A model generated the notes under the pieces. It was not told the origin of the DNA, ran no database searches, and worked only from the letters and a program-made list of their open reading frames with translations. Made by a program: the position numbers and the translations under genes. 64,000 nt of DNA, taken from NCBI GenBank assembly GCA_963930775.1, contig OZ005689.1, forward strand, positions 32,163,235-32,227,234. Reading direction: 5' to 3'. Positions 1,989-62,954 of the stretch are shown one piece after another; the first letter of the stretch is position 1, and every line of letters begins with the position of its first letter. Source of the stretch: Cliona cf. orientalis (taxonomy: Eukaryota > Porifera > Demospongiae > Clionaida > Clionaidae).

Positions 1989-3345
1989 ACTAGTGGTGAT
2001 GAAAGTCATCTGTGCGGGGCGAGCCTTCGCGAAAATCACAAGATTTATCATGCTCATGGTATAGACTACCATCACATCGGCATGGGGCTGGTACCCCAGA
2101 CTACAGCATGCAGCATGTCGGTCAGTCCCAGGCTGATTCAGTTGCATGCATGAACAGTTGCCTTAATACAGGCCTGGTTCCTGTCTAAGAAGCTACCACG
2201 AGAGTGAAGGTATCATAGACTGCCAGTAGTCCAATGATGTTGATCACCTCAGTGTAGCTACTCCAGTCTACATCATGGTCATGACCATCATGAGTCCCAG
2301 ACTTGAAGCATATACCTGTACCAGGCTAAGCCAGGGGACAAGCCTCCATGCAGTCACCATCATGTTCAGAGAAGTATCAGTGACGTTAATAGTAGACCTG
2401 AGCCTTGCCACCATGGTCCAGCACTCACCTTTCCAGTTTAAATTCATGCATTTGCCTACACCGTGATCTACCAACTTGAGTTGTCATTCAGATCGTGTTT
2501 AGTGCATGTGTAGTAAGTATGCGCTTGACGACCATTACCTATGCGTAGTAATTAATTAATCAACTCTCTCCTTACTGAAATGATCACCCCACAAATTAAA
2601 CATACAAGAATATATGTGACCGGATTTGGGAAAACCCTCCGTATGGGATTTTTTCAGAAAATTGAGTTGGATGCATGGTTGATAAGCTCTACCATAGAGC
2701 TAACCCGCGTTCAAGTCTTAGGCCGATCGCGTGCTTCGTTGTGGAGATACAGCGCTTTGTTTGTGATCGCGCCACACCCCCAATAATCGAGAAATTATGG
2801 TCTGAAGGCGTTGCTATGCACGCGTATGGCGTTTCTGCATACTACGCGTGACTCGGAAATCAATTAAATGGACCTGGGCGGAGCCGTTCGAAATGAACGT
2901 AAAGATCGAGCAAGAGTTGAATTTCGTTGTTGACAAGGACAGGCGATTGTTCTTAGATGCCCAAGAAGCTAAAAGGGTAAGCCAACGTACAGTAGATCGA
3001 TGAATCTAGCTGTATCTACTAGGTAGAGAATTCTAATTACCGCCCATAGCAACAGGCTCCGTGTACGGTGGCTGTGCCGACTAGGTGGGTCAAAATGAAG
3101 GCTTATTTCGCCTTCGTATAGCACGACTAGCCTCCGTAGAAGACGGCAACAGTTAGAAGAAGGGTTGTTGGACATGTATATGACAAAATCTGGACTTTGG
3201 CAAATTTAGACCTGAGCTACTAAAAACGCGCATTGCGCGAATCGCGCGCGGATCCCATACAGAGGGTTTTCCCAAATCCGGTCACATATATATAACCGCT
3301 TCCTGTACCTCGTGTATTCGGGGCTTTCTCAGGCTCGCCCCGAAT
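1989..3345. mobile_element. Family-B nonautonomous element interrupted by a family-A element
   Basis: The left end is ACTAGTGGTGATGAAA followed by a GGGGCGAGCCT block. The right end is a palindromic GGGGCTCGCTCAGGCTCGCCCC-type block near 3320-3345. The same two ends bound copies at 18620-19213 and 35504-36224, with partial copies near 1541-1591 and 13696. A family-A element sits inside at 2615-3286, so B is the older insertion. No coding capacity is seen. Confidence 0.6.
2615..3286. mobile_element. Family-A nonautonomous TIR element, copy 1
   Basis: 672 bp with inverted ends starting TGTGACCGGATTTGGGAAAA, flanked by TATA on both sides. Four copies lie in the window (7578, 14359 and 20828-27608 are the others). 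All carry the same internal blocks: a perfect hairpin AGCTCTACCATAGAGCT, a short ATG frame starting MNVKIEQELNF that runs into a GTRAGC splice donor, and on the other strand a 67-68 codon frame starting MSNNPSSNCCRLL. It lacks a transposase. Confidence 0.85.
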
Positions 3346-7430: not shown

Positions 7431-7577
7431 ATGATATTTATTGTTACGCTCCTGCACCTGCAGGTGTAATGCTGCTTTAGTAATAGAAAATACATGACAT
7501 TGTAGTGGGGTCGATGAGACCATATCAAGGAGTGGGTGCAGGAGGCCTAGGGGTGCGGAAGCTTTAGCATATTTATA

Positions 7578-8246
7578 TGTGACCGGATTTGGGAAAACCC
7601 TCCGCATGGAATTTTTTCAGAAAATTGAGTTTGATGCATGGTTGATAAGCTCTACCATAGAGCTAACCCGCGTTCAAGTATTAGGCCGATCGTACGCTTG
7701 GTTGTGGAGATACAGCGCTTTGTTTGCGATCGCGCCACACCCCCCATAATCGAGAAATTACGGTCTAAAGGCGTTGCTATGCACGCGTATGGCGTTTCCG
7801 CATACTAGCGTGACCCGGAAATCAATTAAATGGACCTGGGCGGAGCCGTTCGAAATGAACGTAAAGATCGAGCAAGAGTTGAATTTCGTTGTTGACAACG
7901 ACAGACGATTGTTCTTAGATGCCCAAGAAGCTAAAAAGGTGAGCGAACGTACAGTAGATCGATGAATCTAGCTGTCTCTAGGTAGATTATTCTAATTACC
8001 GCCCATAGCAACGGGCTCCGTGTACGGCGGCTGTGCCGACTAGGTGGGTCGAAATGGAGGCTTATTTCGCCTTCGTATAGCACGACTAGCCTCCGTAGAA
8101 GACGGCAACAGTTAGAAGAAGGGTTGTTCGACATGTATATGACAAAATCTGGACTTTGACAAATTTCTACCTGAGGCTACTAAAAACGCGTATTGCGCGA
8201 ATCGCGCGCGGATCCCTTACGGAGGGTTTTCCCAAATCCGGTCACA
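7578..8246. mobile_element. Family-A nonautonomous TIR element, copy 2
   Basis: Same TGTGACCGG ends and internal blocks as the copy at 2615, flanked by TA on both sides. Here the short forward frame is open from ATG 7774 through SIKWTWAEPFEMNVKIEQ and on past the GTGAGC donor near 7939. Confidence 0.85.
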
Positions 8247-8879
8247 TATTTTAAGAGTGTAAAAAAATGGCTTTCCACTATGATTACTCCGGTAACCTAC
8301 CAAATTATCGGAACTACACCATTAAGGTATTGGGAGCTACAGTACTCTGTTGTTAGTGAAACTATCATCATTGATCAACACCTACCTCAGGGGGGCAAAA
8401 TCATTTTCAGGGGGGATTGCCCTCTTGCTCCCCCCCCCCCTAAAAAATCTGCAAGTCCTCCTTTGATTGAGATTGTGTCACCCCAGAAAAAATCTTCTAA
8501 CTAGAGCGCTCTCGCATCTGCATACTGCTTATACAGATGAGAGCTGCAGCAGTATGCTGAAATACAGAATTTTGTGATAAGCATGAACACAATTCTTTGA
8601 CGACTTCAACAGATTTTTTGTGCTTACAAGTCACTCAGCTGCCAAATCTCCTGATCTGGAGATTTTTGTGCTGATGATAGACAAAATCCCTTGTGCATGC
8701 ATGCGTGGTAATAACCAGTAACATAAAATTAATGGTAGTACATGTATAGTGCTAATGTAATTAGCACATAATCTGATATCAGTAGTTTGGCCAGTGGGAT
8801 TACCATCCTTAGACAGAACTTTAGTGAGTTAAGTGAAGTGGTTTAGAAGTAATCCCAGAAAACCCATAACATGTGTGGT
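8247..8879. other. Intergenic, no gene seen
   Basis: Unrecognised sequence with one C-rich tract (about 8430-8441). The 103-codon frame that overlaps it starts inside the family-A end and has no protein-like features. Confidence 0.5.
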
Positions 8880-9848: not shown

Positions 9849-12800
9849 GACTTTGATATCAGTTTCACTACAAATGAAGATCCTGCTGATGAATCGTTTG
9901 TGATTGAATCTGCTGATGATTCTATTCACCTCTCTACACCACCTCCTCCGTATATATGTAGTCGTACCATACAGGCTGTTAATGTACCACAGAAGCTTTG
10001 CTTTATGGACTTGACCCAGCTCGATAAGTTCATAAAGCAATTAAATAGTATGCGAATGTGTGCCACACAAGGGTGCATGGGTGAACTAACTCCCGTTAAA
10101 GTGAGCACCTTTGGGCTTGGAGGAGCTGTTTCCATAAAATATAACTGTAATGGTTGTGGTAAACATGAGGCACACTTTGAAACATCCTCCAAGAATGAGT
10201 TGTACAATACCAGTGACATTAGTATGTCAGTACAGGTGGCATTCATTGTGGCAGGATGCACCCATACCACCTATTACAAGACATTAAAGCATGCACTGGG
10301 TATTGACGCTGTTCAGTGGACTACCTTTCAGTCAACCATCAAACGAATGTTTCCCATTGTACAAGAGATGGTTGACAGAATGTGTGAAGAAGCTAAAACA
10401 GAGATGAAAACCATGAACCAAGATGAACTTGGTTCATGGAGTCGTGCTGTCACATCTGCTGACGGTGCATGGATGACACGTGGTCATCACAGCAAGAATT
10501 TTACCTTCAGTATTCGCAATTATTATACTGGAGCTCTTCTTTATCGAAAGCATCTCTGCCAGAAAGGCAGAGATACTTTGATGAATGAGGAACTCTACCA
10601 GGGAACATCCAAGGGAGCAGAGGGATATGCAGCACGCCTCACTTTCAAAAAGGCAAAGGAGGAAGGCATCAACATTGCTATTCATTGGCAAGATGCTGAC
10701 TCCTCCTCTTCAAATGCAATGATAGAGCACTTTCCTGATGCAGAGATAATGATCTGTGGTGGGCATGCTGGGAAGGCTCACAAAAAGCAACTGGAAACAC
10801 TTGCTAAAAAGAAATCTTTCACTGATACGTACAAAAAGAAGTATTGTAAAAGATTTCCACAGGTTGATTCAGTGGTGTGTCATTGTGAGAAACGACACAC
10901 ACCTGGGTGTGGCTGTTTGTCAGTTGCATTTATAGAGAAAGCACGGAACAATTTTTCATTTATTCTCTCAAACAGCGAGTCTGCGCACGATTTTGCTGAA
11001 GCTTTGAAAGTATTGCCTAGGCATGCACGTGATGAACACGAGTGGGATGGAGGGAAGTGCATGTTTCATGAACTAAAAGTGTGCTCTTGTGGCAAGTGTG
11101 AAGATGATGCTGATCTCAAGTGTGATGGCAAGGATTATCACACCAGACAGATACTTAAGTGTCCTATGCACTCCTTAGCCTATGAAATTGAGTGCCATCA
11201 AAGGGCTTCAATGTCTGAAAAATTAGTTCACCCCATTCTCAAACGAGGCCACTCAAACTGGCTTGAAGCGTCACATAACATTTTTATACGCTTTCGGCCA
11301 AAGCATATCCACCTGGAAAGGCTTCATTATACTCTGTCCACAGAACTTGCATTACTACAGTCTAACATGACATACATGTATCGAAAGCGTGGACCACAGT
11401 ATCATTGGGTTGTTGAATTGTTCAGACGTTTGAAGATACCAGTGTATGATGATGTTCACCGAGCACTTGAAAATTTCAATGATCTGAGAATGAAGCAACT
11501 GGAGTTGGCAAAGACTGAAAAGTCCAAAAAGAGGAGGATCCAACTAAAAGGAGAGAGGACAAAAGATGCACAGCGCCGTAAGCTGTGGTCAAAAAAGCAT
11601 GGCCATGATACGTATGGTGATGATGAAGACAGTGATACAGCTGAACTCATGCCCAAGGTAACAAAGAAAGGTAAAAAGGGACAAATATCTATTAAAGGGA
11701 AGTGTAAAGCATGTGGGTCCTCAACTCACTTGCGGTCCTCCAATAAGTTGTGCCCCTACAACAAAAAGCGAGTTGGTGATGCTCCCACTCTACCACACAA
11801 ACATGATGTATCATCTTCATTTGAGAGTGACCTGTCAGAAAACCAAGATGACAATTTGTCACCATCAGGTGACTTTTTGTCTCAGACAGATGAAAGTGAT
11901 AGTACATCTGCTGATGATTGGTGCTATGAAGATGACATCATTAGTAGTGACATGTGTGTATGTGGAGCACTTGGTCGAGCACACAAACGAGATTGTCCCA
12001 TGAGTTCAAGGTGTAGTCTTCCTACAGAAATATATCATACAGATTCTCGACTGAATCAGTCTGATTTTGAATGGGGGGCTGTTGCCAAGGCTCAGCCGAA
12101 ATTAAGCAAGTCTGGCAAGAGGATTTGTCAGGAAGATGATGAGCTTCCTGTAACGAAAAAACCTCGAACCATTACATCCTCTTTTGAGGTTGGAGACTAT
12201 GTCTGCCTGCATAGTATTAGATTGATTAATCAGCATGTACCCTGTCGTATAGTGACAAAATCTAGGAAAGGCTACCAGCTTTACTGCAGGAAAGGCATTC
12301 TCAACTGAAGCTACTCCAGCAAAGAGCTAACCATCTTAGATGGTGACAGTTTTATTTCACTTGACACCTGGCGTCGAGCATCCAGAATCTCTTTTAAGAC
12401 TGTAACAGATGATCTAACTTGTTTGGAGAAATGCGATTGCAATATTAGCAGCAAGTCCATAGAAAGTGTGATTGACCTCACTGATGATTCTGATGTGATG
12501 AGTACTGATAGTGCAATGTGGGTGTGCAATGTATTGTACTCTCTATCTAATGATGACAAGGAAATAACATTGTCACCGTCTGGTTGGCTCAACGATAGCA
12601 TCATCTCAGCTGCACAGATGCTCATATTACAGCATTTCCCTCACGTGTCTGGACTGCAACCACCAACGCTTCAGCAAGCTTGGGCATTTGATGTGCATAG
12701 AGAATTTGTTCAGATTCTTCACATTCACAACAGCCACTGGTGTGTTGTTTCTAATATTGGATGTGAGGATGGAGTAATTAATTACTATGACAGCATGTAT

Positions 12801-13259
12801 CCTTCCATTTCCTCAAAGACTATGCAACTCATAGCAAGTCTTATGTTCAGCTCAGCATCAGAGCTTGAGGTTAGAATTATGGATGTGGGACAGCAAACCA
12901 ATGGCTCAGACTGTGGTATCCTTGCCATAGCCTTTGCCTTTGATATTTGTTGTGGTGAAGATCCATGCAGTGTAAGATTCAACCATAAATCCATAAGGTA
13001 CCACTTGGCCAAGTGTTTGGAGGAGTGTAAGTTTACCCGCTTTCCGGTACTTGGTGAGCGAAAATCCTCCGATATATAGCACATTCAGAAGACGGACCTT
13101 CATTGCTCCTGCCGATTACCTGAAAAAGTTGGTGTTGATCAAATGGCAGAGTGCGATGCTTGCAAAGTTTGGTACCATCAACACTGCATGGATATTCCAC
13201 CTGAAGTATTTGAAAATCCCAATACTCCCTGGAAGTGTAAAAAGTGTGAATCGCTGTGA
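9849..13259 (+). pseudogene. Mutator-like transposase fused to Ulp1 protease and PHD finger, copy 1
   Basis: One frame of 1137 codons opens after a splice acceptor (TTTATAG, 9848), so an upstream exon is missing. It is interrupted by TGA at 12306-12308 and TAG at 13077-13079. In order it shows: a zinc ribbon with two Cys pairs; the transposase core with SADGAW, QDADSSSSNA and NWLEASH, which I read as the D-D-E residues of Mutator-like (MULE) elements; Cys/His-rich blocks; a zinc knuckle CKACGSSTHLRSS; an SH3-like segment ending YQLYCRKGILN; a C48/Ulp1 protease domain with HWCVVSN, YYDSMY and QTNGSDCG (His, Asp, Gln and Cys of the active site); and a C-terminal PHD finger with CSC, CDAC, WYHQHC and WKCKKC. 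The other copy has an Arg codon where TGA stands. With two stops it is probably dead, but the decay is mild. Confidence 0.85.
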
Positions 13260-14110: not shown

Positions 14111-14358
14111 TGGCATGGCCCTAACCTTCGAAACTCTCTTCTCCTGGACATGGAGAAGATGGGAGTGCCGTTTTGTAAACAAGCTACTTGAGACCATCTA
14201 AAAGGTGTATTTCCGATGAATTTGGAGAATATCCACCCACGCACTTTTTATTTATTCAACTAAAAACCATAATTAAAGTAGTTTATATGGGAAATAATGG
14301 CTAAAAGTTGGCTACCCACTAGTACAGTGCTACTGAGCAAGAGAGTACACACAGTATA

Positions 14359-15026
14359 TGTCACCGGATTTGGGAAAACCCTCCGTAACTAATTTTTTCT
14401 GAAATCAAGTTTGATGTATGGTTGATAAGCTCTACCATAGAGCTAACCCGCGTTCAAGTTTTAGGCCGATCGCGCGCTTCGTTGTGGAGATACAGCACTT
14501 TGTTTGCGATCGCGCCACACCCCCAATAATCGAGAAATTACGGTCTAAAGGCGTTGCTATGCACGCGTATGGCGTTTCCGCATACTACGCGTGACCCGGA
14601 AATCAATTAAATGGACCTGGGCGGAGCCGTTCGAAATGAACGTAAAGATCGAGCAAGAGTTGAATTTCGTTGTTGACAACGACAGCCGATTGTTCTTAGA
14701 TGCCCAAGAAGCTAAAAAGGTGAGCGAACGTACAGTAGATCGATGAATGTAGCTGTATCTAGGTAGAGAATTCTAATTACCGCCCATAGCAACGGGCTCC
14801 GTGTACGGTGGCTATGCCGACTAGGTGGGTCAAAATGAAGGCTTATTTCGCCTTCGTATAGCACGACTAGCCTCCGTAGAAGACGGCAACAGTTAGAAGA
14901 AGGGTTGTTCCACATGTATATGACAAAATCTGGACTTTGACAAATTTCTACCTGAGCTACTAAAAACGCGCATTGCGCGACTTGCGCGCGGATCCCTTAC
15001 GGAGGGTTTTCCCAAATCCGGTCACA
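14359..15026. mobile_element. Family-A nonautonomous TIR element, copy 3
   Basis: Ends TGTCACCGG and CCGGTCACA, flanked by TA. It has the same internal blocks as the other copies, including the minus-strand 67-codon frame and the forward frame with a GTGAGC donor. Confidence 0.85.
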
Positions 15027-15142
15027 TATGCTTATTGCAGATTTTTCAGGTATGTATCCTGATCTCACTTGGTACCCAGTTAGGTCAATGGATGGACCAT
15101 CTACATCCTCAGTGACAGGCTGAGCTCACCTTTCATAGGGCT

Positions 15143-20535: not shown

Positions 20536-21373
20536 AAAACAGGTGCACATTTAGGGGGTGTCAGAAGGATGGTAGCATTTATTATTGTACTGTCCCAGGC
20601 AAGCACCCAGTCCCGGAAAAGTGCCTATGTATCGCATTTCAAGGGGTCAATGTAGCAGCTTCTATACCAATTTATATCCTGCATGCATAAGCACCCAAAA
20701 ATCGTGAGTTACATGTACGTTTTAGCACCCACAGGCACTTATCCGGGACACTATGGTACATACATACATGTACATTTACATGTATGATATGGACATGGAT
20801 ACGAAACAAATCTATAAACTAGGCATTTGTGACCGGATTTGGGAAAACCCTCCGTATGGGATCCGCACGCGATTCGCGCAATGCGCGTTTTTAGTAGCTC
20901 AGGTCTAAATTTGTCAAAGTCCAGATTTTGTCATATACATGTCGAACAACCCTTCTTCTAACTGTTGCCGTCTTCTACGGAGGCTAGTCGTGCTATACGA
21001 AGGCGAAATAAGCCTTCATTTTGACCCACCTAGTCGGCACAGCCACCGTACACGGAGCCCGTTGCTATGGGCGGTAATTAGAATTCTCTACCTAGATACA
21101 GCTAGATTCATCGATCTACTGTACGTTCGCTTACCTTTTTAGCTTCTTGGGCATCTAAGAACAATCGCCTGTCCTTGTCAACAACGAAATTCAACTCTTG
21201 CTCGATCTTTACGTTCATTTCGAACGGCTCCGCCCAGGTCCATTTAATTGATTTCCGGGTCACGCGTAGTATGCGGAAACGCCATACGCGTGCATAGCAA
21301 CGCCTTTAGACCGTAAGTTCTCGATTATTGGGGGTGTGGCGCGATCACAAACAAAGCGCTGTATCTCCACAAC

Positions 21374-21392
21374 CAGAGGAGGTTGGTCACGT
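21374..21392. repeat. Left TIR of the 6.1-kb transposon
   Basis: CAGAGGAGGTTGGTCACGT, identical to the complement of 27458-27476. It is preceded by target duplication CTCCACAAC at 21365-21373. An inner palindrome, CGTATACACA..TGTGTATACG, follows at about 21407-21432. Confidence 0.92.
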
Positions 21393-21475
21393 ACAATAAT
21401 TGACTACGTATACACATAGAACTGTGTATACGCCCCCGCAACCCGGGTCAACCCGCTGACTCAGCAATTTACCTC

Positions 21476-24400
21476 ATGGCTGTTTCGCGCAATTCGAGTG
21501 ACGCACCGCTTACCCCAAGGCGACCTACTGGCTTTAGAGCGTCTGGTGACCGTCGGGAGCGATGTTCACTTAGGGAGAGTGCACATATACAGCGAAAACG
21601 TCTTGTATTTTCCGAAGAAGGCAACACAACAACGTCATCTGGTATGACTGTGCACACCCAGATGTGGAGTGAGGATGAAATAAAGGCTCTGCTTGAGTTT
21701 TTTTTATTTCATGGTCAAGCAGGCGTCTGGCCTTGTCACAAAAGGGAAGTCTTCTGGAAAGGAGCAGCTTCTTATGTAAAGATTCGCTCCAAAAGTAGCC
21801 ACGAACGGAGTGGTAAGCATTTTCTATCATAATTTTTGTCATAGTCCAATCAAACGTTTTGTTATTCAGGTAGTGCATGTCGATACAAAATAGTATCATG
21901 GTTCAAAGAAAGATTTCAGAGCCCAACTGATGCTGAAGCTTTCTACTTCGGTAGTTCTGCATCCTCGAGTGGAGGTGTAGACCAACAGCTTGCCACACTT
22001 TCTTCTTCCTTCTCCAAATGTTGCTCGAGCTTGGGTGTTGAAGTTTCTGGTGATTTCATTGAGCTGTCTGCCAAGGCAATGCTTCACCTAAAAGAAAGCA
22101 AGCGGACCAATGTACTGTACAGTCTTGCGAAGGGTTTAGGAACTCTGCGTTGTGACAAATCTGACACTCGATTTCCAACTAAGAGAATGCCACTAGGTCT
22201 TCTTGAGTATATGGTTAACTTTTTTGAGGCTGAGGAGATGAGAAAGGTGGATACCATTGTCTAGTATGTTGATTATATTTTAGACTACTTTCTGAATTTC
22301 AGATTCCTCACTGTCCAAAAGACTACCGTCTTTGGCAAGAGACCATGTACGTCCAGTTTGGACAAAAATGGTCCAAGCTGCATCACGGTCCCTTATGGAG
22401 TGGTGGAGAAGATTCACGAATGGATACAATGGAGGTATGTATCAGTATATTTTTGCAGTACAATCACATGCAGTGATATTTTGGTATGCTCAGGCTCGTG
22501 TAAATGTCCCTGGTTTGTCAGAGCGCACTTTGCGTAGGAGCATTAGTGCTAGTGGAGTGACCCTCACCCCCGAGATTCAGGTGAGTGATAAAGTGTATGT
22601 CATAGTATGATGCATGCTTCATATTATAGAAGATTGAGTGCCCAGGTATTTCCTACCCCTAACTTGAATTCTTACTTCATGCTTCACGGACTATGTTTCC
22701 ACCTCAGGTGGTTAAGCTTTTTCACTTGAATGATGTACATGTACATGTACATGTAATTATCTCAAGTGTTTTGATCATGCATGTACATTATATGAAATAT
22801 GTTCAGACTTCTGTGCTTGATGAGGCATGCCGAACTCATCCCAATGCGTGGTGGTGGATCAAGACTGATGGCTGTGATCTGGTTTCTGGACTTTGTGAGT
22901 CCATGAAGCTAGAGTGGAGTGGAGATGTTGATTTTAATGATGGTCAGCTTCAAAAGATGCATGAAAATTACCGGCAGTACCTGACATTTGTTAGTGGAAT
23001 TGGCCTGGAAGATAGATGGAATCCTACTCTCATTTTGGAGGATTTATGTACCTGTAGTAAACGATTGGCTGAGGATGTATCCTTTATCTTGACGAGTAAG
23101 TATACACAAACACGTATGCAGGTACATGTACATAATGGTCTACCATTAACATAGTATCTCCCATGGGTGTTTAGGCATAACTGGATTTTTACATGTACGC
23201 ATATCCAGGACACACATTTCTATGGACACTGTGACTTTGACCCCTTGACATGGGCACTTGCATGACCACTACTGTATGTGTGTGTACATGTGTGTGTATG
23301 TCTGTCTGTCTGCACTTGTGAGTTGTGAGTTAGTATTCCTACAACTATGTACTGCTGACTTCACGTACAAAGAAGCTGTTCTTATCTTACAGTACTGAAA
23401 GAGAAGCAGGATGAGTACTGTGAGAAACCCAAGACTGGGTATTCAAATGACAAAACTCTGTACGAATTGGCATGGAAAGTAAGAGAGCTGTCAGATCTGA
23501 ACGAGGAAGGAAGATCACTCCATGTAGAAGCCAAAGTTTTGTCAACAAAAATAGCCGATCCATCATATGATATTGTGGGTGATAACTTTGACCGTCAACT
23601 TTCTCAATTCCGTGAGCGGTTATTATCCTTTGTGAAGCTGGTCACAAGGTTCCGTCGGACTGCAGCCACTCATATTTTGGTCGTCATGATCAGCACCGAA
23701 GACAGGAGAAGTAAGCCATATGCTTTGCCCATTCAGCTCCTTCCATATGTGGGAATTCAAGATATGGAGGCCCGTACACTCATGAATAAAGTGATACAAG
23801 AGATGGTTAATAGAGGCATGAAAGTATCAGGTATGTGGATTTTACAAGCATGACGTCCAGTTAATTTTAATGTTGTCTGTAATGAAGGACTCACTACTAA
23901 TGGAGAATGGAACAGTCTACGGACGAAGGGGAATACAAGGCCGTTATCCATATTGCAGTTGCGATCTGAGGCAAGAGCGAAATACAGTCGCTTAAGCTTC
24001 AAGAGAATGATGAATATGCTCACACCAAGAGGTTAATAAATCATGTATACATGTACATACATGTATTTATTCACTCAATTGACATACTGCAGTGAATCCT
24101 GATGGCTCTATAACTGCGGAGATTCCTAATCCAGCTGTTTCTCCTGAACTCCTCAGAGAAATTTTGCTACTCAAGGCAGAGCACTGTACTGACGAGGACA
24201 TCATCACTCATTTGAGACCAAAAACTGTACCAGAGGGATACGAGTACTCCACATGGATGCCAGGTATATATATGATATATGATACCAATTTTAATAATAA
24301 TGGTATTAAATATGCAACCCAAACTGGTAGGTCGAGAAGAGACCACACTGAAAAAACTTCGTTCCATCTTGGCACAGCTTGAGTACAGATATCTGGTTGA

Positions 24401-26006
24401 GCACTGGGAGATGAAAGGGGTCCCTTTTAAATCACATCTTCATGTCCCCGAGGCCCACCCACTGACCGGTATGATGTTTTGTGAACGCGAGGATGAAGGT
24501 CATGTATTAAAGGTGCTTACTGTACTAATTATGTTTTAGTAATTATTTTTTTACATGTGACTGTGTGCAATACCCTTGTAGTGAGATCCTTTCTTTATAA
24601 TTTTGTATGCATGCACCTTTACATGTGTAGCGCATAGAAAGTTCTTTGCGAAGAGGAGGGACTAGAGGAATTCACTTAGAGCGATTTGTCCAAGCATTGG
24701 AAGATCCATCCACTGGATTGACTTACTCGGCTTTGAGTGGAGTGAGAAAGCAGTCTGTAGAGGACGTGGAGCGTCTATTTGGCCCAGGAGTGATTTCCTT
24801 CATGAAAAAGAATCATTATGAAAATGAAGCTAAATATTTGGAAGTTGTACGCAACTGGAGAAGGTCTGTTGATGAGCGTGGACTATGTGAAGATCAGCGC
24901 CGACAATTTCGTGATGACTTCATTTCCTATATACTTGATGAGTGGATGCCTTGGCACAGAAATTCATTGGATTTTTCAACACTGGAGGTTAACAGGTGTG
25001 TATGTGCATGTATTTACACACATCTCTATCTCCCCCCACCAACTCTCTCTCTCTCTCCCTCTTCCTTCCATTATCCCTCTTCCCTCCTATCCTAATTAAT
25101 TTTATTGTACATGAAAATTTAATAGTACCTGATATAGAGGAATAAACAACCAACTCCAATAAATACACATGTACATGTACAAAGTACACCTGCATATGTT
25201 TAGTACATGCTACAACTTGACAAAGTGTAATCACAATTATTCCTTCATGGCAGTGTGTGATTAGATACACTCTTCTCCCTCTCACATACAAACACACATG
25301 TATATACTCCACACCTGGCACATACACATCATTATACAGAACCTGGCACATACACATCATTATACAGAAGTACTTCAGGAGTACGAGGATTTACACGAGA
25401 GACACTAGTGGCAATTACTGCTGACATCTGCACGAGAAACTATTACCAGGAGTTTATCGCTAGTCGTGGATTACCACTAGAGCACCCTAGAGCTGGAACA
25501 ACCGATGATGTTGAATGTTTCTTTTCGGTACTGAGAGATGTAGTGGGCAAAGACTTTACTTTGAAGCAGGTATGTTCTCCTTTAGTACTGTACATGCTGT
25601 AAAATTTCATTAGCTATCACCAGTTCCTCAACTTATGCAGGTCTGGTATGGATGGAGGAAAATATGTGCTGAGTTTGTGAAGCGTAATGATCCCGAGCTA
25701 CCTTTTTATTATTATACGAGTGCACACACTCGATTTTACGAAGAGGACATGCCAGACTTCAACCAACCACCTAAAAAACAGAGGGAGTTGCGCCGCCCAC
25801 CCCGTAGGGAACTCTTGAGTACAAATGTTGGATCCAGAGTAACTTTTCCTATTTGTGGAAGTGAATCCATAAGGGCTCGGTTTCATAATGTACCCGTAAA
25901 CCTACCACCACCCCCCGGAAGTGAGTATCAGGTACTGGATGAACATTCGTATCATACAACGCAACTGATTTTCTGTGATTGTCTTCATTGTGTCATACTA
26001 CCATAA
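21476..26006 (+). CDS. Putative transposase of the 6.1-kb element, 12 exons, about 1029 aa
   Basis: Exons chained by eye, all in frame with GT..AG introns: 21476-21812, 21870-22246, 22303-22434, 22494-22580, 22807-23095, 23393-23830, 23888-24031, 24093-24263, 24331-24512, 24631-24995, 25368-25569, 25641-26006. An optional 27-nt exon near 22709 cannot be excluded. The N-terminus is basic, then a SANT/Myb-like helix block (from MWSEDEIKALLEFF, about residue 62). Exon 5 has WWWIKTDGCDLVSGL (Asp about 332) and WSGDVDFNDG. Exon 11 has GTTDDVECFFSVLRD (acidic cluster about 887-890) followed by LPFYYYTSAHTRF. I read these acidic residues as candidate D..D..E catalytic positions; that is inference. 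I do not recognise a named transposase family. No stop or frameshift was found in the exons. Confidence 0.75.
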
Positions 26007-26082
26007 TCATAGTATTATGTAAAAAAAAAAAAAAAAACAAGTATGTAAGTGTGCTACAGATACCATGGGTATTACATGTATG

Positions 26083-27274
26083 TCAGTGAAAGGTAGTGCT
26101 TGCACTTCGCACAACAACAGGTGGCCACTTGCCTTGCTTTGTTATAGTTATTCCAGTATACCATCCGGCACCACTGCGATACCAATGTACAATATATTTT
26201 ATCCAATCAAATTTGACTTCGGTTATGAGGTTCTTTTCAAGAGCATAATGAACAGCCTCGACAGCCTCTTGCACGACATAACCTATTCGTTGCCACTTGT
26301 TAGATACATTACATTCAAATGCAATTGCTTGCGCATCTACTGGATTATCTGGCTCGGGCCGTATACGAACAGGAACATGTTCGCCATTGTCCAACTTTCG
26401 AGATGCAAGTATTATCACTTTTTCGATGTACTTCTCTTTCTTGACGCCAACACATTTGAACACAACCGAGTGTTTTATTTTGTTTGTTTCAAGTTCAGGG
26501 GTATCTTCACTAGAAGAAACAGTCGGCTCAGAGCTAGGTTCCTCCAGTTCATCTGGATTTGATGACACGTCAGAACTGCTTGAAGTTTCCATTGCATGTT
26601 CATCCTCCCAAGTCCATTTCCAAATAATGAACACCTGTTGTTTTGAAAAGGACAGTGTACTCACCCTAAGAGATTGACTAAATTCTTTTACCTGCAATTG
26701 TATGTATATACAAAATTCAAGTTGGGATGTGCACACATGCATGCTCACACACACACAGTTGGGGGTGCACAGCATCTCGTGCAACCCATTTAACGACATA
26801 ACATTGTAATTGATTTGTTTATGACCCTCTATCATCATCAGAATACCCTATTGTCACCTAAAACTTATCCCGTGGCCAATAATAAACTTTGATTGTTATG
26901 TCATTATAAACACATATACCGTTAACACACACACACACTAGCACTGGCATGTATAGAATATGTACACTAAAGGTAAACACACTCACCTCTATAAAGAACG
27001 CATCGGGATGTGCTGTGATCACGGCTTTAGCTGGATAGCTTCTCTCCAAGGACGGACACTCTCTCATAAATCCATCAAACACTCCAATCTTGCCCTGTGA
27101 GATCATCTGGTACTTCACGTGCCTTAACTGCACACTAAGAACAGGGAAACTAGGTATAGTATATGTATAGATCTTCCCTATTCTCAAGATTGGCAGAGAG
27201 ATGGGACCTTTCGCATCGCTCTCAGTAGCATCTTCCCCATCAGACGCAGATAAAAGGCTTGCAAAAGTTGCCAT
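26083..27274 (-). CDS. HIRAN-domain protein, second gene of the 6.1-kb element
   Basis: Two exons, 27274-26987 and 26691-26083, joined over a 295-bp intron (donor GTGAGT, acceptor TTGCAG), giving 298 aa. Start ATG 27274 (MATFASLLSASDGED) is chosen over an upstream non-ATG extension. Residues about 115-165 are an acidic Ser/Glu-rich linker. Residues about 168-285 match the HIRAN pattern: FKCVGVK, a basic-hydrophobic strand, GEHVPVRIRPEPDNPVDAQA and QRIGYVVQEAVEAV. HIRAN domains, known from HLTF and Rad5, bind DNA 3' ends or damaged DNA, so a role in handling transposon ends is possible but unproven. The gene converges on the long gene, leaving 76 bp with a poly-A tract between the two stop codons. 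Confidence 0.75.
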
Positions 27275-27457
27275 AAATAAGAGTCGGTATGATCTTGGGA
27301 TCCTAATCTTGTATGCAGAGCCGCTGCTGGATGAGCAGTGAATTCGAAGGTAGCGAGACAGTCTGGAATGACACGGTAAACATACCCGGGTATCCAGCGG
27401 CACCACGTGGGCGCATAGCGCGCGTAAAATGGAATGTCAAGAATTTAATCCCGCGTA

Positions 27458-27476
27458 ACGTGACCAACCTCCTCTG
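27458..27476. repeat. Right TIR of the 6.1-kb transposon
   Basis: Complement of the left TIR over 19 bp without mismatch, followed by the second target duplication CTCCACAAC at 27477-27485. Confidence 0.92.
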
Positions 27477-27608
27477 CTCCACAACGAAGCGCGCGATCGG
27501 CCTAAGACTTGAACGCGGGTTAGCTCTATGGTAGAGCTTATCAACCATGCATCAAACTCAATTTTCTGAAAAAATCCCATACAGAGGGTTTTCCCAAATC
27601 CAGTCACA

Positions 27609-43004: not shown

Positions 43005-44276
43005 CTATACATAAAACTCGAGTTTATTCTTTTCCATGGCCCATTGTACTAGTCTACTGTGAAACACAACACTTCCATCACTCTGATATCTAAGGAGATT
43101 TGCAGACACAAGGTGCTCTATTTCTTTTTTAACGATTGCTGCATCTGCATCCAGCTTTTTCAGCTGATCTTGACTGATACTTCCCGTAGATGATAGATGG
43201 TCCATAATCACCTTCTGTAGCTTGCGTTGAGCAGGAGGATATGTCATTACACTTTCCATGTCGCGTTTTACATTGTGGGTCAAGAGAAAGTCTGTGATGG
43301 AGCTGAACTGAGCATCAATCTTCTCTACATTCTTCGTTTTTAGACTTCTATATTCCAGCATCGCCGACGATAGATGAACAAATCTACCACCACATGCAGA
43401 AACGATCTCTTCAGCGAGCTCCTTTGGAACTGTGCTACTCAAATAGCGTATAGCTTCTTTATCAGGAATGTCCACTACTTCCACAATTTTAGCCATTCTT
43501 GACCTTGAAGGTGATTTTTGAATCAGTGGCATCACGCTGCCTTCACTACTCACAAGTATCACTTTCAATGTACGAGAGTTTGATAGAAATTTTGCTCTGT
43601 CTACTACCTTCAAAAACACCTGTTTGTAATCTTTGGCTAGCAGGTCAATGCCATCAATCACCAATACAGGTGTGTTGCCATGCTTAGACTTAAACTTCTT
43701 GGCCTGTTCACCTATTTTGTCAAGAACATATGCGATCGCTGACTCATCACTGGGTATCACATGATATTGGGGACACGAATTTAGGGTGAGGTAGGTAAAG
43801 ACAAAGTCTATGAACCTTTCTGGGCGCTGAATCATCCCAGCCGCTTCGCCGACATCCTGTGCGAAACACACGGGATCAAAAACCTCATAGTACAGAACAC
43901 CTTCAGGATGACAACGACACACTTTTCTCAACATTGCGGTCTTTCCCGTGCCAGACGGTCCAATGACTACTCCGAATTTGTCGTCTTCCTTGTCAGGATG
44001 TAAGAGCACGTTCAGGTCATCTTCCAAGGATGGGCGGTCGATTGTAATAAAGGTTGGGAGAAGTTCTGGCTTGGTACCCTCTTCAATCTTCTTCAGGATA
44101 GGTGTTTCAAGTCTCCAGCGTGAAAGGGATATTAGGCCATAGTGCACGAACGGTATTGACAAGACAGCAGCTGCCGCCCTTGATGACTTCGGGTACTTCG
44201 TGGTTATTGTTAACGCCCGAGTGGAAGTGGCTCTGGCGAAGACAGCAGCTGCCTTAAACAATCCTAACAACGACAT
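43005..44276 (-). CDS. P-loop ATPase, left-arm copy, 423 aa
   Basis: Intronless. ATG 44276 is chosen; a longer frame exists only with a non-ATG start, and the other copy lacks it. Residues 1-40 are basic, Ala/Ser/Thr-rich and free of acidic residues, like a mitochondrial targeting sequence. A hydrophobic stretch follows (AAAAVLSIPFVHYGLISL, about 37-54). Walker A is GPSGTGKTA (about 107-115) and Walker B is VLVIDGID (about 207-214); VILVSSEGS (about 240) may be sensor 1. The C-terminus (about 350-420) looks like a winged helix. It resembles archaeal-ATPase/STAND-type NTPases; the precise role is unknown. It differs from the right-arm copy at 18 residues. Confidence 0.75.
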   Translation of the reverse strand: MSLLGLFKAAAVFARATSTRALTITTKYPKSSRAAAAVLSIPFVHYGLISLSRWRLETPILKKIEEGTKPELLPTFITIDRPSLEDDLNVLLHPDKEDDKFGVVIGPSGTGKTAMLRKVCRCHPEGVLYYEVFDPVCFAQDVGEAAGMIQRPERFIDFVFTYLTLNSCPQYHVIPSDESAIAYVLDKIGEQAKKFKSKHGNTPVLVIDGIDLLAKDYKQVFLKVVDRAKFLSNSRTLKVILVSSEGSVMPLIQKSPSRSRMAKIVEVVDIPDKEAIRYLSSTVPKELAEEIVSACGGRFVHLSSAMLEYRSLKTKNVEKIDAQFSSITDFLLTHNVKRDMESVMTYPPAQRKLQKVIMDHLSSTGSISQDQLKKLDADAAIVKKEIEHLVSANLLRYQSDGSVVFHSRLVQWAMEKNKLEFYV

Positions 44277-44308
44277 CTTCGACGATCTCGCGCTCAAAAC
44301 TCAGAGAG

Positions 44309-44838: not shown

Positions 44839-46110
44839 ATGTCGTTGTTAGGATTGTTTAAGGCAGCTGCTGTCTTCGCTAGAGCCACTTCCACTCGGGC
44901 GTTAACAATAACCACGAAGTACCCGAAGTCATCAAGGGCGGCAGCTGCTGTCTTGTCAATACCGTTCGTGCACTATGGCCTAATATCCCTTTCACGCAGG
45001 AGACTTGAAACGCCTATCCTGAAGAAGATTGAAGAGGGTACCAAGCCAGAACTTCTCCCAACCTTTATTACAATCGACCGCCCATCCTTGGAAGATGACC
45101 TGAACGTGCTCTTACATCCTGACAAGGAAGACGACAAATTCGGAGTAGTCATTGGACCGTCTGGCACGGGAAAGACCGCAATGTTGAGAAAAGTGTGTCG
45201 TCGTCGTCCTGAAGGTGTTCTGTACTATGAGGTTTTTGATCCCGTGTGTTTCGCACAGGATCTCGGCGAAGCGGCTGGGATGATTCAGCGCCCAGAAGGG
45301 ATCATAGACTTTGTCTTTACCTACCTCACCCAAAATTTGTATCCCCAATATCATGTGATACCCAGTGATGAGTCAGCGATCGCATATGTTCTTGACAAAA
45401 TAGGTGAACAGGCCAAGAAGTTTAAGTCTAAGCATGGCAACACACTTGTATTGGTGATTGATGGCATTGACCTGCTAGCCAAAGATAACAAACAGGTGTT
45501 TTTGAAGATAGTAGACAGAGCAAAATTTCTATCAAACTCTCGTACATTGAAAGTGATACTTGTGAGTAGTGAAGGCAGCGTGATGCCACTGATTCAAAAA
45601 TCACCTTCAAGGTCAAGAATGGCTAAAATCGTGGAAGTAGTGGACATTCCCAATAAAGAAGCTATACGCTATTTGAGTAGCACAGTTCCAAAGGAGCTCG
45701 CTGAAGAGATCGTTTCTGTATGTGGTGGTAGATTCATTCATCTATCGTCGGCGATGCTGGAATATAGAAGTCTAAAAAAGAAGAATATAGAGAAGATTGA
45801 TGCTCAGTTCAGCTCCATCACAGACTTTCTCTTGACCCACAATGTAAAACGCGACATGGAAAGTGTAATGACATATCCTCCTGCTCAACGCAAGCTACAG
45901 AAGGTGATTATGGACCACCTATCATCTACGGGAAGTATCAGTCAAGATCAGCTGAAAAAGCTGGATGCAGATGCAGCAATCGTTAAAAAAGAAATAGAGC
46001 ACCTTGTGTCTGCAAATCTCCTTAGATATCAGAGTGATGGAAGTGTTGTGTTTCACAGTAGAGTAGTACAATGGGCCATGGAAAAGAATAAACTCGAGTT
46101 TTATGTATAG
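44839..46110 (+). CDS. P-loop ATPase, right-arm copy, 423 aa
   Basis: Same length and layout as the gene at 43005-44276: basic N-terminus, hydrophobic segment about 37-54, Walker A GPSGTGKTA, Walker B VLVIDGID and a winged-helix-like C-terminus. It has no intron or disruption. The start codons of the two genes are 562 bp apart, head to head. By eye about 18 residues differ (for example RRR for RCH after Walker A, and TQNLYP for TLNSCP), with about 5 silent changes. Both Walker motifs are unchanged. Both copies could be functional. Confidence 0.75.
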   Translation: MSLLGLFKAAAVFARATSTRALTITTKYPKSSRAAAAVLSIPFVHYGLISLSRRRLETPILKKIEEGTKPELLPTFITIDRPSLEDDLNVLLHPDKEDDKFGVVIGPSGTGKTAMLRKVCRRRPEGVLYYEVFDPVCFAQDLGEAAGMIQRPEGIIDFVFTYLTQNLYPQYHVIPSDESAIAYVLDKIGEQAKKFKSKHGNTLVLVIDGIDLLAKDNKQVFLKIVDRAKFLSNSRTLKVILVSSEGSVMPLIQKSPSRSRMAKIVEVVDIPNKEAIRYLSSTVPKELAEEIVSVCGGRFIHLSSAMLEYRSLKKKNIEKIDAQFSSITDFLLTHNVKRDMESVMTYPPAQRKLQKVIMDHLSSTGSISQDQLKKLDADAAIVKKEIEHLVSANLLRYQSDGSVVFHSRVVQWAMEKNKLEFYV

Positions 46111-55215: not shown

Positions 55216-56205
55216 TTAACAATAAAATTTAGTATGTTTGATCCAAGCCTGACAATGTTCAATTTTAATGTTCTGGAATGCTGCTTTAACAAGTGTTGTT
55301 TTATTAGGAAAAGCTTCCAGAACATCATCATGTAGCTTTAAATATGATTTAACATGACTAAAAGCTGTCTCTATCGGATTCATGTCCGGGCTGTAGGGTG
55401 GTAAATAAATGACTGGGATACCAGCATCATCCAGTAGTTGTTGAACTTCAGCAACATGGTGGATGGAGCAGTTGTCCATCACCACAACCGAGTTTGGACT
55501 TGTGCCATCGTATGGATACATGTTGGGAATCAGGGTAGAGCAGACAAAGTCATAAAATGCATCCCCATTAACACTCTCAGTAGTCAGATCTACATCTATA
55601 ATACCACTAGTCCAAGAGAGTGCAGCTATAGCTGAGATTCTCCTACCACGTACCAGCAGCTTTTGACTAATAGCTCTTTCCCCACGAATAGAATAGCCAA
55701 ATTTTCTCAGCATTTCACGGTTGTCACAGCCAGTTTCATCCACCCAAACAAGGACTTCTTTTGGGAAGAAAGAAATATTGGCTATATAGAGCCCTCTGTA
55801 TTCAACCCTTCTTTGTAGTGCAACGTGCTGAATTTTTTTGCGAGTGATTCCATAACTAGCTAGTAAGCTACAAATTGTAGCAGGGGACACTTCAGTATTG
55901 GTTATCTCCTTCACATGATGGCATACTTCATGAAGATATAGCTTTGGATTATCAAGCACTAATCCAATGACATAAAGCTGGTGATGGTAGTCCAACTTAC
56001 AGAGCTCGGGCCGTTTTCGTGCCTTCTTTGCTTCAACACTGCCAGTGTGTTCAAAAAGCTTGAAGGTATTGTAGGCAGTACCAACAGAAATATTCAAACG
56101 GTGTGCAATCTCTCTGTATCCCAGTCCCATCCCCAGCCTTTGCCAAATCACTCTCCATCTTAGATCCTTAGAGTACGCCGTCGTCCTGCCAGGCTCTGCC
56201 GACAT
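55216..56205 (-). CDS. IS630/Tc1/mariner transposase, DD34E, 329 aa
   Basis: ATG 56205 (MSAEPGRTTAYSKDLRWRVI) is chosen because the longer frame starts at a non-ATG codon within the TIR. Residues about 10-60 form a helix-turn-helix (YREIAHRLNISVGTAYNTF). A second DNA-binding helical region follows. Catalytic residues are D in VLVWVDETGCDNR, D in VVVMDNCSIHH and E in SPDMNPIETAF, with 34 residues between the last two. The length is normal for the family and no disruption is seen, so it is probably active or recently active. Confidence 0.9.
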   Translation of the reverse strand: MSAEPGRTTAYSKDLRWRVIWQRLGMGLGYREIAHRLNISVGTAYNTFKLFEHTGSVEAKKARKRPELCKLDYHHQLYVIGLVLDNPKLYLHEVCHHVKEITNTEVSPATICSLLASYGITRKKIQHVALQRRVEYRGLYIANISFFPKEVLVWVDETGCDNREMLRKFGYSIRGERAISQKLLVRGRRISAIAALSWTSGIIDVDLTTESVNGDAFYDFVCSTLIPNMYPYDGTSPNSVVVMDNCSIHHVAEVQQLLDDAGIPVIYLPPYSPDMNPIETAFSHVKSYLKLHDDVLEAFPNKTTLVKAAFQNIKIEHCQAWIKHTKFYC

Positions 56206-56314
56206 GATCAAATATTTCAATTTTTGAACTTTACCACGCACACGAGACTGCGCATGCTCCACGCCCGCTGTATCCGCGCGCCGCGCAATGTTCAAAGGGA
56301 GCCTAAATCCGCAG

Positions 56315-59558: not shown

Positions 59559-62500
59559 TTAATCATGGCCTGCACATGCTTTACATTTCCAAGGGACCTC
59601 TGAATCACCAAACACATCATCAGGAATGTCCATACAGTGTTGGTGGTACCATGTCTTGCATACATCACACTCAGCCATTTTATCACCCCTCTCCTCAGGC
59701 AGGCGGCAGGAGCAATGAAGGTCAACTGTCTGAGTAGACTTTACACCAGTACTCCTCCGCTCACCAACTATTGGAAATCGTGAGAGGCTACACTTCTCCA
59801 GACAGTTGGCTAAGTGCTGTCTAATGGCTTTATGATTGAACTTCACCTTGCAGGGATCTGACCCACTGCAGATGTCGTATGCAAATGCTATAGCAAGCAC
59901 ACCACAGTCGGAGCCATTTGACTGTCTGCCAACATCCATCATCTTGACTACCAACTGTGAGGCAGAGCTAAATATCAGACTGGCAATCACACGTAGAGTG
60001 CCAGTGGAAACAGAAGGGTACATGCTGTCATACACCTTAGCTTCTCCTTCACCACAACCAATGTTAGAAACAGCACACCAGTGACTGTTTCGAACATTGA
60101 TTACCTGTACAAATTCTCCTCTATGAACTTGAAAGGTAAGAGTTTGCTGAAGAATAGGATTTTGTAGGCCAGATATGTGAGGAAATTGTTGCAAAATGAG
60201 TAGCTGAGCGGCTTCAATAACTCTGTCAGAGAGCCAACCTGAAGGTGACAGTACTTCCTCTCTGTTGGTAGAAGTCAGAGTGTACAGGGGATTGCACAGC
60301 CAATTCTTACTACTTACAGCTACTGTATCAGAATCATCATCCTGAGTGAGGTCTATGACAGTGTTATTAACTTTGGCTACAGCACACTCACACTTTTCTA
60401 AACAGTTGGGGTCACTGGCAACATCTTGAAGTGAGACTTTGGCACCAGTTCTCCAACCTTCCAGTGACAAAGACCAGTCACTCTTGCACGTGCTTAATTC
60501 CTGCATGACATAGCTACGGTTGAGTACACCCTTGTGGCAGTAAAGCTGGTACTTTTTACCCACTACAAGGACCACACGGCAAGGAACATGGTGCTTATCC
60601 AACCTGTCAGTATGAACACATACTTTATCTCCAACCTTATAGGAAGTACTAGACCTCTGCTTTTTAGCAGATGGGAGTTGGTCTCCACTGACATTTTCTC
60701 TCTTACCAAGCACATTTGAGCTTGGGTTAGTGCCAATAACATCAGATCCACCAGCAGTGTCAGTAGGTGGTGGAATAGGATCAGCAGAAGGACCACTAGG
60801 GAAGAGGACACAACCAGTGTGGTAGCGATTCCTGGAGCTCATGGGACAGTCTTTCTTGTGTGCCCTGCCACCAGCACCACAGGTACACAGGTCACCAGTG
60901 AAGATATTATCTTCAAAACAGCAATCACTGTCAGATGAAGGTATGAAGTCATCAGTGGAGAATTCTTCATCAGATAATGTATCAATGTTTGCTGACTTCG
61001 TGTCATCTTCATGGTGGGACGACTTATTTTTTAACTGCTTATTGAACGGGCAATCGTTGTGGTTAGAGCGCAGGTGAGTAGTAGATCCACAAGCTTTGCA
61101 CTTCCCACCAGCTGAACCTTTTTTCCTTGATACCTTAGGTTTAAGCTCAAGATCATCTTCATCGTCACCACTATCATGATCACCATAAGTGTCATGGCCG
61201 TGTTTGTACGACCACGCCTTACGGCGCTGAGCATCCTTGGTTCTTTCCACTTTCAACTGTATTCTTCTTTTCCTAAACTTCTCAGTTTGTCGACTTTCCA
61301 GCACTTGCTTCCTGGCTTTATTGAATTCTTCCAGTGCCTGATGAACACCATCAAAGACAGGTAGCTTCATGTGCCTAAACAGCTCAATCACCTAGTGATA
61401 CTGCGGTCCACGCCTCTGGTACATGTAGGTCATGTTTGACTGAAGCAATGCAAGCTCCGTTGATACTACATAGTGAAGCCTCTCCAAGTGGATATGCTTT
61501 GGTCTAAACCGAATGAAGACAGTATGAGAAGCTTCCAACCAGTTGGAGTGACCCTTTTTAAAAATGGGATGGATAAGCTGTTTAGACACTGATGCTCTAT
61601 CATGGCACTCTATTTCATAAGCAAGAGCATGGAAAGGACAAGAAAGTGAACACCTGGTGTGATAATCTTTACCTTGGCACTGAAGCCACTCATTGTCCTC
61701 ACACTTGCCACAACTACAAACACGCAATGAATGAAAGTCACACATTCCTCCATCCCATGTGTGCTCATCACGAGCATGTCGTGGCAATGCCTTAGCCTTG
61801 TCAGCAAACTCCTCAGCTGACTCACTCATGGACAGGATCAAGGAGAAGTTATTTCGTGCTCTCTCAATAAATCCCTTTGACAGGCAACCACAGCCAGCTT
61901 GGTGCCTCTTACAATGACAAACCACTTCATCCACAAGAGGAAATCGCTCACGGTAAACCCGCTTCAATCTGGCACTAAAACTTTTCTTTACTGTAAAGTT
62001 TTCAAGACGCTTTTTGTGTGCCCGTGCAGCGTGTCCAGCACATATCATCACCTCAGCATTGGGGAAGTGGTCTGTCACTGCATTGGCAGAAGAGGAATCA
62101 GCATCCTGCCACTGAACAGCTATGTTCATGCCCTCCTCTTTGGCTTGTTTGAAAGTCAGGCGGGCTGCGTGCCCTTCTGCACCTTTAGAGGTCCCTTGGT
62201 ACAGCTCTTCTTTAATTACTCTATCCCTGCCTTTCTGGCAAAGATGCTTGCTGTAAAGAAGAGCTCCATTGTAGTAATTGCGAATACTAAAAGTAGCATT
62301 CTTGCTGTGATGACCTGTAGTCATCCACGTGCCATCTGCTGATGTTACAGCACGACTCCATGAACCAAGTTCCCTTTGATCCATGGATTTCATTTCCAGC
62401 TTTGCTTCATCACACATTCGATCAACCATCATTTTCACTACAGGATACATTTTCTCTATGGTTGATTGAAATGTGGGCCATGAAACAGCATCGATTCCAA

Positions 62501-62954
62501 GTACATGTTTCAGTACCTTGTAATAGGTCATGTGGGTGCAACCGGCAACAATAAAAGCCACCTGAACAGCAGTGCTAATATCACAGCTTCTGCCAAGCTC
62601 AAACTTAGTGCATGTTTCAAATGTGGCTGTCTTACAAACACAACCATTACATGTGTATTTTATAGAAATAGCACCTCCAAGGCCAGCACTCCTCACATGT
62701 TCTGGAACAAGGATACCCTTACAGCTGGGTGTGGTACAGGCACGTATCTGATTAAGTTGCTTCACAAATGAGTCTAATTGGGATAGGTCCATGAAGCACA
62801 CTTTCAAAGGAATACCCGTACATGTACTATTCAGTAATTTCTTCCTAACTACCTGATCCGGAGTAGGAATATACAATGAATCATCCGCAGACACAGTAGC
62901 AAATGATTCATCCAATTCTGATGAAAATTGTTCATCACAGCAAGGACTATCCTC
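59559..62954 (-). pseudogene. Mutator-like transposase fused to Ulp1 protease and PHD finger, copy 2
   Basis: One frame of 1132 codons from a splice acceptor (TTTTGTAG, before 62954) to TAA at 59559-59561, broken only by TAG at 61392-61394. The other copy has TGG (Trp) there. Order of motifs: zinc ribbon (CTTPSCKG, CNGC); transposase core (SADGTW, QDADSSSANA, NWLEASH); zinc knuckle CKACGSTTHLRSN; SH3-like KVGDKVCVHTDRL; Ulp1 protease (HWCAVSN, VYDSMYP, QSNGSDCG); and PHD finger (CSC, CDVC, WYHQHC, WKCKAC). One nonsense change separates it from an intact 1131-residue protein, so it decayed recently. A missing 5' exon is implied by the acceptor. Confidence 0.88.

Follow-up and report, generated by a model that had tools for sequence, protein, structure and literature searches.

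The 64,000-nucleotide stretch of the Cliona cf. orientalis genome analysed here (the window; contig OZ005689.1, positions 32,163,235 to 32,227,234) carries at 21374-27476 an intact-looking animal DNA transposon with two genes inside. We read it as a cut-and-paste transposon that belongs to a very divergent branch of the P superfamily and in which the transposase (protein A) has a second protein (protein B) as its constant partner, and assign this reading a probability of roughly 0.86. Computed evidence covers the structure of the element, the family defined by its terminal inverted repeats (TIRs) and target site duplications (TSDs), the predicted P-type and HIRAN folds of relatives of the two proteins, and the linkage of gene B to the element end and to gene A. 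No published description of such an element was found among the titles and opening parts of abstracts searched, a scope that lay outside Repbase.

The element is bounded by 19-bp TIRs (CAGAGGAGGTTGGTCACGT) at 21374-21392 (+ strand) and 27458-27476 (− strand), which are 100% complementary to each other. With up to three mismatches allowed, the TIR pattern occurs at two places in the window and at none in 100 dinucleotide-preserving shuffles. The TIRs are flanked by a perfect 9-bp duplication (CTCCACAAC) at 21365-21373 and 27477-27485, and the joined flanks align through the junction with three window repeats representing the empty target site (14358-15044, 2614-3289 and 7577-8249, with 95.1, 97.0 and 95.8% identity, respectively). 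Each of these features had been proposed in the original prediction and was borne out, as were the two convergent genes that it described as open after splicing.

Gene A (CDS 21476-26006, + strand) encodes a P-superfamily-type transposase of 1029 aa in 12 exons (21476-21812, 21870-22246, 22303-22434, 22494-22580, 22807-23095, 23393-23830, 23888-24031, 24093-24263, 24331-24512, 24631-24995, 25368-25569 and 25641-26006). Gene B (CDS 27274-26083, − strand) has three exons (27274-26988, 26691-26666 and 26634-26083) and encodes a protein of 288 aa with an OB fold and a HIRAN domain. The splice sites of both genes were placed by hand, and their coding ends lie 76 bp apart. Independently predicted proteins from Dysidea avara align over most of protein A, with P0001 sharing 49% identity over 92%. 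In gene A, the intron that precedes exon 11 contains a perfect 28-bp tandem duplication (25313-25368) adjoining the acceptor.

The exact 19-bp end is found only at the two window positions in the 217-Mb genome, and the pattern with up to three mismatches matches 445 + 482 places, against 33 + 32 for the reversed pattern. From these 927 places, the first 30 were taken as TIR loci, and a script run over 70 loci identified 19 TIR pairs with an exact 9-bp duplication in ten, one mismatch in three more and none in six. None of the ten exact TSDs extends beyond 9 bp; four of them are identical and hence not independent, leaving seven distinct TSDs. The 13 pairs whose TSD is exact or has one mismatch are all MITEs of 151-172 bp, which may be mobilised by protein A of this branch. 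The shared TSD (GGCTTGAAC) belongs to the MITEs in L064, L066, L068 and L069 (164-172 bp), pointing to the same repeated target or a duplicated stretch.

Gene B was examined at 20 of the 49 matches listed for it in the genome. An end resembling CAGAGGAGG (no more than one mismatch) lies upstream of gene B at 19 of these loci, compared to 3 of 20 for the reversed pattern, and the end is exact at 17 of 18 distinct gene-B places, the window included. Six gene-B loci were inspected: two have both ends and a 9-bp TSD (L072, 5,346 bp, GCACCAAGT; L074, 6,155 bp, ATCACTCCC), and the other four have one end within the stretch. Relatives of gene A are present at five of the six (L071, L072, L073, L074 and L076) and are convergent with gene B in every case, while L075 has gene B without gene A. 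Because of the ends upstream of gene B and the presence of gene A beside it, gene B is a constant part of a diverse element family; this, together with its identification as a gene for a HIRAN protein, is new relative to that prediction.

At the gene-A end, a conserved subterminal block (21427-21467, + strand; element positions 54-94) has similar counterparts, roughly as far from the end, in L072 and several MITEs. It includes the palindrome GCTGA[C/G]TCAGC (GCTGANTCAGC; 21455-21465 in the window), which is present in all three gene-A ends (window, L072 and L074), and in none of seven gene-B ends; among short TIR pairs, 11 of 15 have it. This palindrome resembles a Maf/bZIP site and is perhaps a promoter element. 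The motif CACGTG lies no more than 150 bp from 11 of 17 gene-B ends, compared to 3% of random window stretches, and also in two of three gene-A ends. Both subterminal motifs may represent promoter or transposase sites. A third motif, CATTCC, occurs at some gene-B ends; the idea that MITEs carry this gene-B-end motif was dropped since CATTCC was absent from all 15 MITEs (both ends, reading inwards, 70 bp).

Several other features are located in the window. Two near-identical inverted open reading frames of 430 and 423 aa (43005-44297, − strand, with a match to Pfam AAA_22, and 44839-46110, + strand) are about 540 bp apart. An open frame of 359 aa at 55216-56295 (− strand) is of the Tc1/mariner type with DDE_3 and HTH_23 matches. 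Two related mobile-element-like sets of frames occupy 9900-13079 (+ strand) and 59559-62915 (− strand), the former including a Ulp1 protease (12423-13079) and the latter a PHD finger (59559-61391); a Pfam scan (E ≤ 0.001) gave no family for the frames 9900-12308 and 61392-62915.

The 24 relatives found for protein A include proteins from Dysidea avara, Halichondria panicea and Branchiostoma. Sequence searches against the PDB gave only chance-type matches (a single one for protein A, with E 0.13 and no P element transposase; coiled-coil type matches for the family profile, with E 0.35 or worse), and protein A was placed by fold comparison. Of the folds listed as matches to the P0001 prediction, the P element transposase ranks first by a wide margin. 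In addition, the Pfam family TNP-like_RNaseH_N was matched (E ≤ 0.1) by 16 of the 22 relatives in alignment A3 (P0051 and P0055 of the 24 were left out). According to these models, protein A would combine an RNase H core with a P-type insertion domain and a P-like helix-turn-helix stretch, and the P0001 model has helices added between β-1 and β-2.

Mutator (MULE) elements have TSDs of 8-11 bp, and the 9-bp TSD had inclined the original prediction toward them. Although TSD length taken alone would suit a Mutator-like element, no MULE family was detected by Pfam scans in the 22 relatives (E ≤ 0.1) or the window protein (E ≤ 1), and the P element transposase is the best fold match by far. MULE transposases do not appear among the listed fold matches, an absence that excludes nothing. 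We consider a Mutator-like element extremely improbable, and that leaning was not upheld.

The N-terminal part of protein A also departs from the P element. No THAP domain was detected in the window protein (Pfam, E ≤ 1) or in the 22 relatives (E ≤ 0.1; many are without the N-terminus), and the C2CH pattern is absent from residues 1-330. A three-helix module is predicted at the place of the THAP domain of P, and these helices, along with a Pfam match of P0010 (E 0.016), weakly suggest a Myb/SANT domain. The missing THAP domain, the 9-bp TSD, the added helical stretch and the PDB sequence search without a P match would all fit a new DDE superfamily only distantly related to P, set apart by its TSD, N-terminal domain, insertion and second gene. 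However, the P fold match of a relative, the profile matches and the invariant D(2)H motif leave a new superfamily unsupported, and we judge it improbable; where the original prediction had allowed for either a new superfamily or a very divergent branch, only the latter stood. It had also named a clear match to a known superfamily as one result that would speak against it; such a match came from the fold and from weak profile hits, not from sequence searches against solved structures.

The putative catalytic residues of protein A were placed by motif inspection. D332 (motif KTDGCD; codon 22867-22869, + strand) likely corresponds to D230 of the P element and is invariant in alignment A1 (ten rows, with the window protein and nine of the first 11 relatives). 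The D(2)H motif of P transposases, located between the second D and the E (PMC4168063), is represented by D713-E-G-H716 (codons 24492-24503, + strand), and both D713 and H716 are invariant in A1. E890 (TTDDVECFF; 25513-25515, + strand) is the candidate third acid equivalent to E531; it is nearly invariant in A1, and in the P0001 model its counterpart falls within helix 954-967. Catalysis by protein A is inferred. The place of the second acid, D303 in the P element, is taken by N558 (TTNGEWN; 23899-23901, + strand).

Asparagine occupies this place in all six gene-A copies read in the sponge genome (window, L071, L072, L073, L074 and L076). Among the 24 database relatives, 20 show the second-acid motif, with aspartate in 15 (among them the motif-bearing Dysidea proteins as well as P0008 and P0010 from Branchiostoma) and asparagine in five, two of them near-copies (P0046 and P0048); GE was built into the search pattern, so this count says nothing on the glutamate. 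In A1, E560, two residues past N558, is nearly invariant. The asparagine-bearing copies are either inactive and moved in trans, or the asparagine is tolerated, with E560 perhaps taking over. In the former case, clean copies would be mobilised by an aspartate-bearing relative, in line with the asparagine in all six own-genome copies, the aspartate in the Dysidea and Branchiostoma proteins just named, and the stop codons within conserved stretches of the gene-A pieces in L072 and L076, which make these two copies look broken; an open gene A was shown for the window copy only. Nevertheless, the asparagine is common to six diverse copies (aligned pieces share 25-67% identity with the window protein) and to five of the 20 database proteins that show the motif, a pattern suggestive of tolerance more than of decay, and the near-invariance of E560 also argues against inactivity. 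Mobilisation in trans is plausible but less likely than not. A more specific scheme, which we regard as unlikely, would be a two-protein P-class system where the element's own OB and HIRAN protein captures the 3′ single-stranded ends produced by the transposase, the target cut has widened to 9 bp and the second acid has moved to glutamate (D...E...E). In this scheme the aspartate would have become free to change to asparagine because the second acid moved two residues on.

The Drosophila P element (6p5a and 6pe2) has a similar RNase H core and insertion domain by fold, and the places of its D230 and E531 are matched in the window protein. It is likewise a TIR-bounded cut-and-paste transposon with internally deleted derivatives, and its TIR begins with CA, as does that of the window element. 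In contrast to the P element, the window copy has no detected THAP domain, helices between β-1 and β-2, asparagine for D303, and the extra gene B. The TSD of the P element is 8 bp and its TIR 31 bp (PMC7776569), compared to 9 and 19 bp in the window. Galileo, another member of the P superfamily, has the DDE triad and, like the window protein, the D(2)H motif, and its TSD is 7 bp (8 bp in three copies) with a THAP domain and long TIRs (PMC4168063). The sponge genome itself contains canonical P-like elements (L026-L033 and L041; ends in L077-L080), which belong to the same superfamily by their core and have TIRs (CATAGATATTAGAGCGCGGG) starting with CA. Two copies (L077-L080) have a 7-bp TSD and TIRs with 20 bases in agreement, starting with CATAG, and aspartate is the second acid in all six aligned reading frames (alignment A5, six frames from 20 P-like loci). 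Nine canonical P-like loci share about 98-100% identity over 3.4 kb, which suggests recent activity. The narrow definition of P/THAP9 elements includes a TSD of 7-8 bp, whereas the window element, L072 and L074 have 9 bp. Since the element differs in its TSD, its helical addition and its gene B, and no THAP domain was detected in it, we assign it to a deep branch of its own within the P superfamily, outside P/THAP9 in the narrow sense.

Protein B was identified as a HIRAN protein by its Pfam profile (26093-26470, − strand; about residues 160-285, borders approximate), and the predicted fold of its relative P0015 contains both HIRAN and OB domains. An NCBIfam scan of protein B produced a chance match only, and neither the protein nor the B profile matched PDB sequences. 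In the viral contig collection searched, there was no sign of a virus: P0001 had no match, and no match to the B alignment was confirmed by tblastn (alignment A4 comprises 27 of 31 B relatives). The C-terminal half of P0015 resembles the HIRAN domain of HLTF by fold. Unlike HLTF, protein B is without helicase or RING domains, has an N-terminal OB fold and is encoded by a transposon. The HLTF HIRAN domain binds the 3′-OH end of single-stranded DNA (PMC11237066), and the P transposase cuts at the transposon 3′ ends and 17 bp inside on the other strand, generating 17-nt 3′ extensions (PMC7776569). Such tails are therefore a candidate substrate for an OB and HIRAN protein whose gene lies next to that of a P-type transposase. 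By analogy, we tentatively regard the holding or protection of 3′ single-stranded ends at the transposon or donor gap as the likeliest role of protein B. It is also quite conceivable, if short of an even chance, that protein B serves the element otherwise, for example by counteracting silencing or repair or by regulating transposition: in another study the HLTF HIRAN domain showed a preference for fork structures (PMC4666394), but the OB and HIRAN combination suits binding of single-stranded DNA ends and agrees with the 3′ tails that P cleavage leaves.

In the proposed mechanism, protein A would bind the CAGAGGAGG TIR and the subterminal sites, excise the ends and join them to the target strands at a 9-bp offset, thereby generating the 9-bp TSD. 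A staggered P-type cut would leave 3′ single-stranded ends, and protein B, expressed from the opposite end of the element, would hold or protect them. A search for P-type excision footprints returned no places and gives no support to a P-type stagger in this family.

P elements have unusually long 3′ single-stranded tails at their cut ends (PMC7776569), and a deep branch with its own OB and HIRAN protein would offer a natural way to test the handling of such tails and supply new end-binding factors. With this branch, the P superfamily would cover a wider range of TSD lengths and DNA-binding domains, and possibly of catalytic residues. The CAGAGGAGG end together with the 9-bp TSD allows unclassified elements and MITEs of this genome to be named, and this perhaps extends to other sponges and to lancelets, where relatives of protein A are present.
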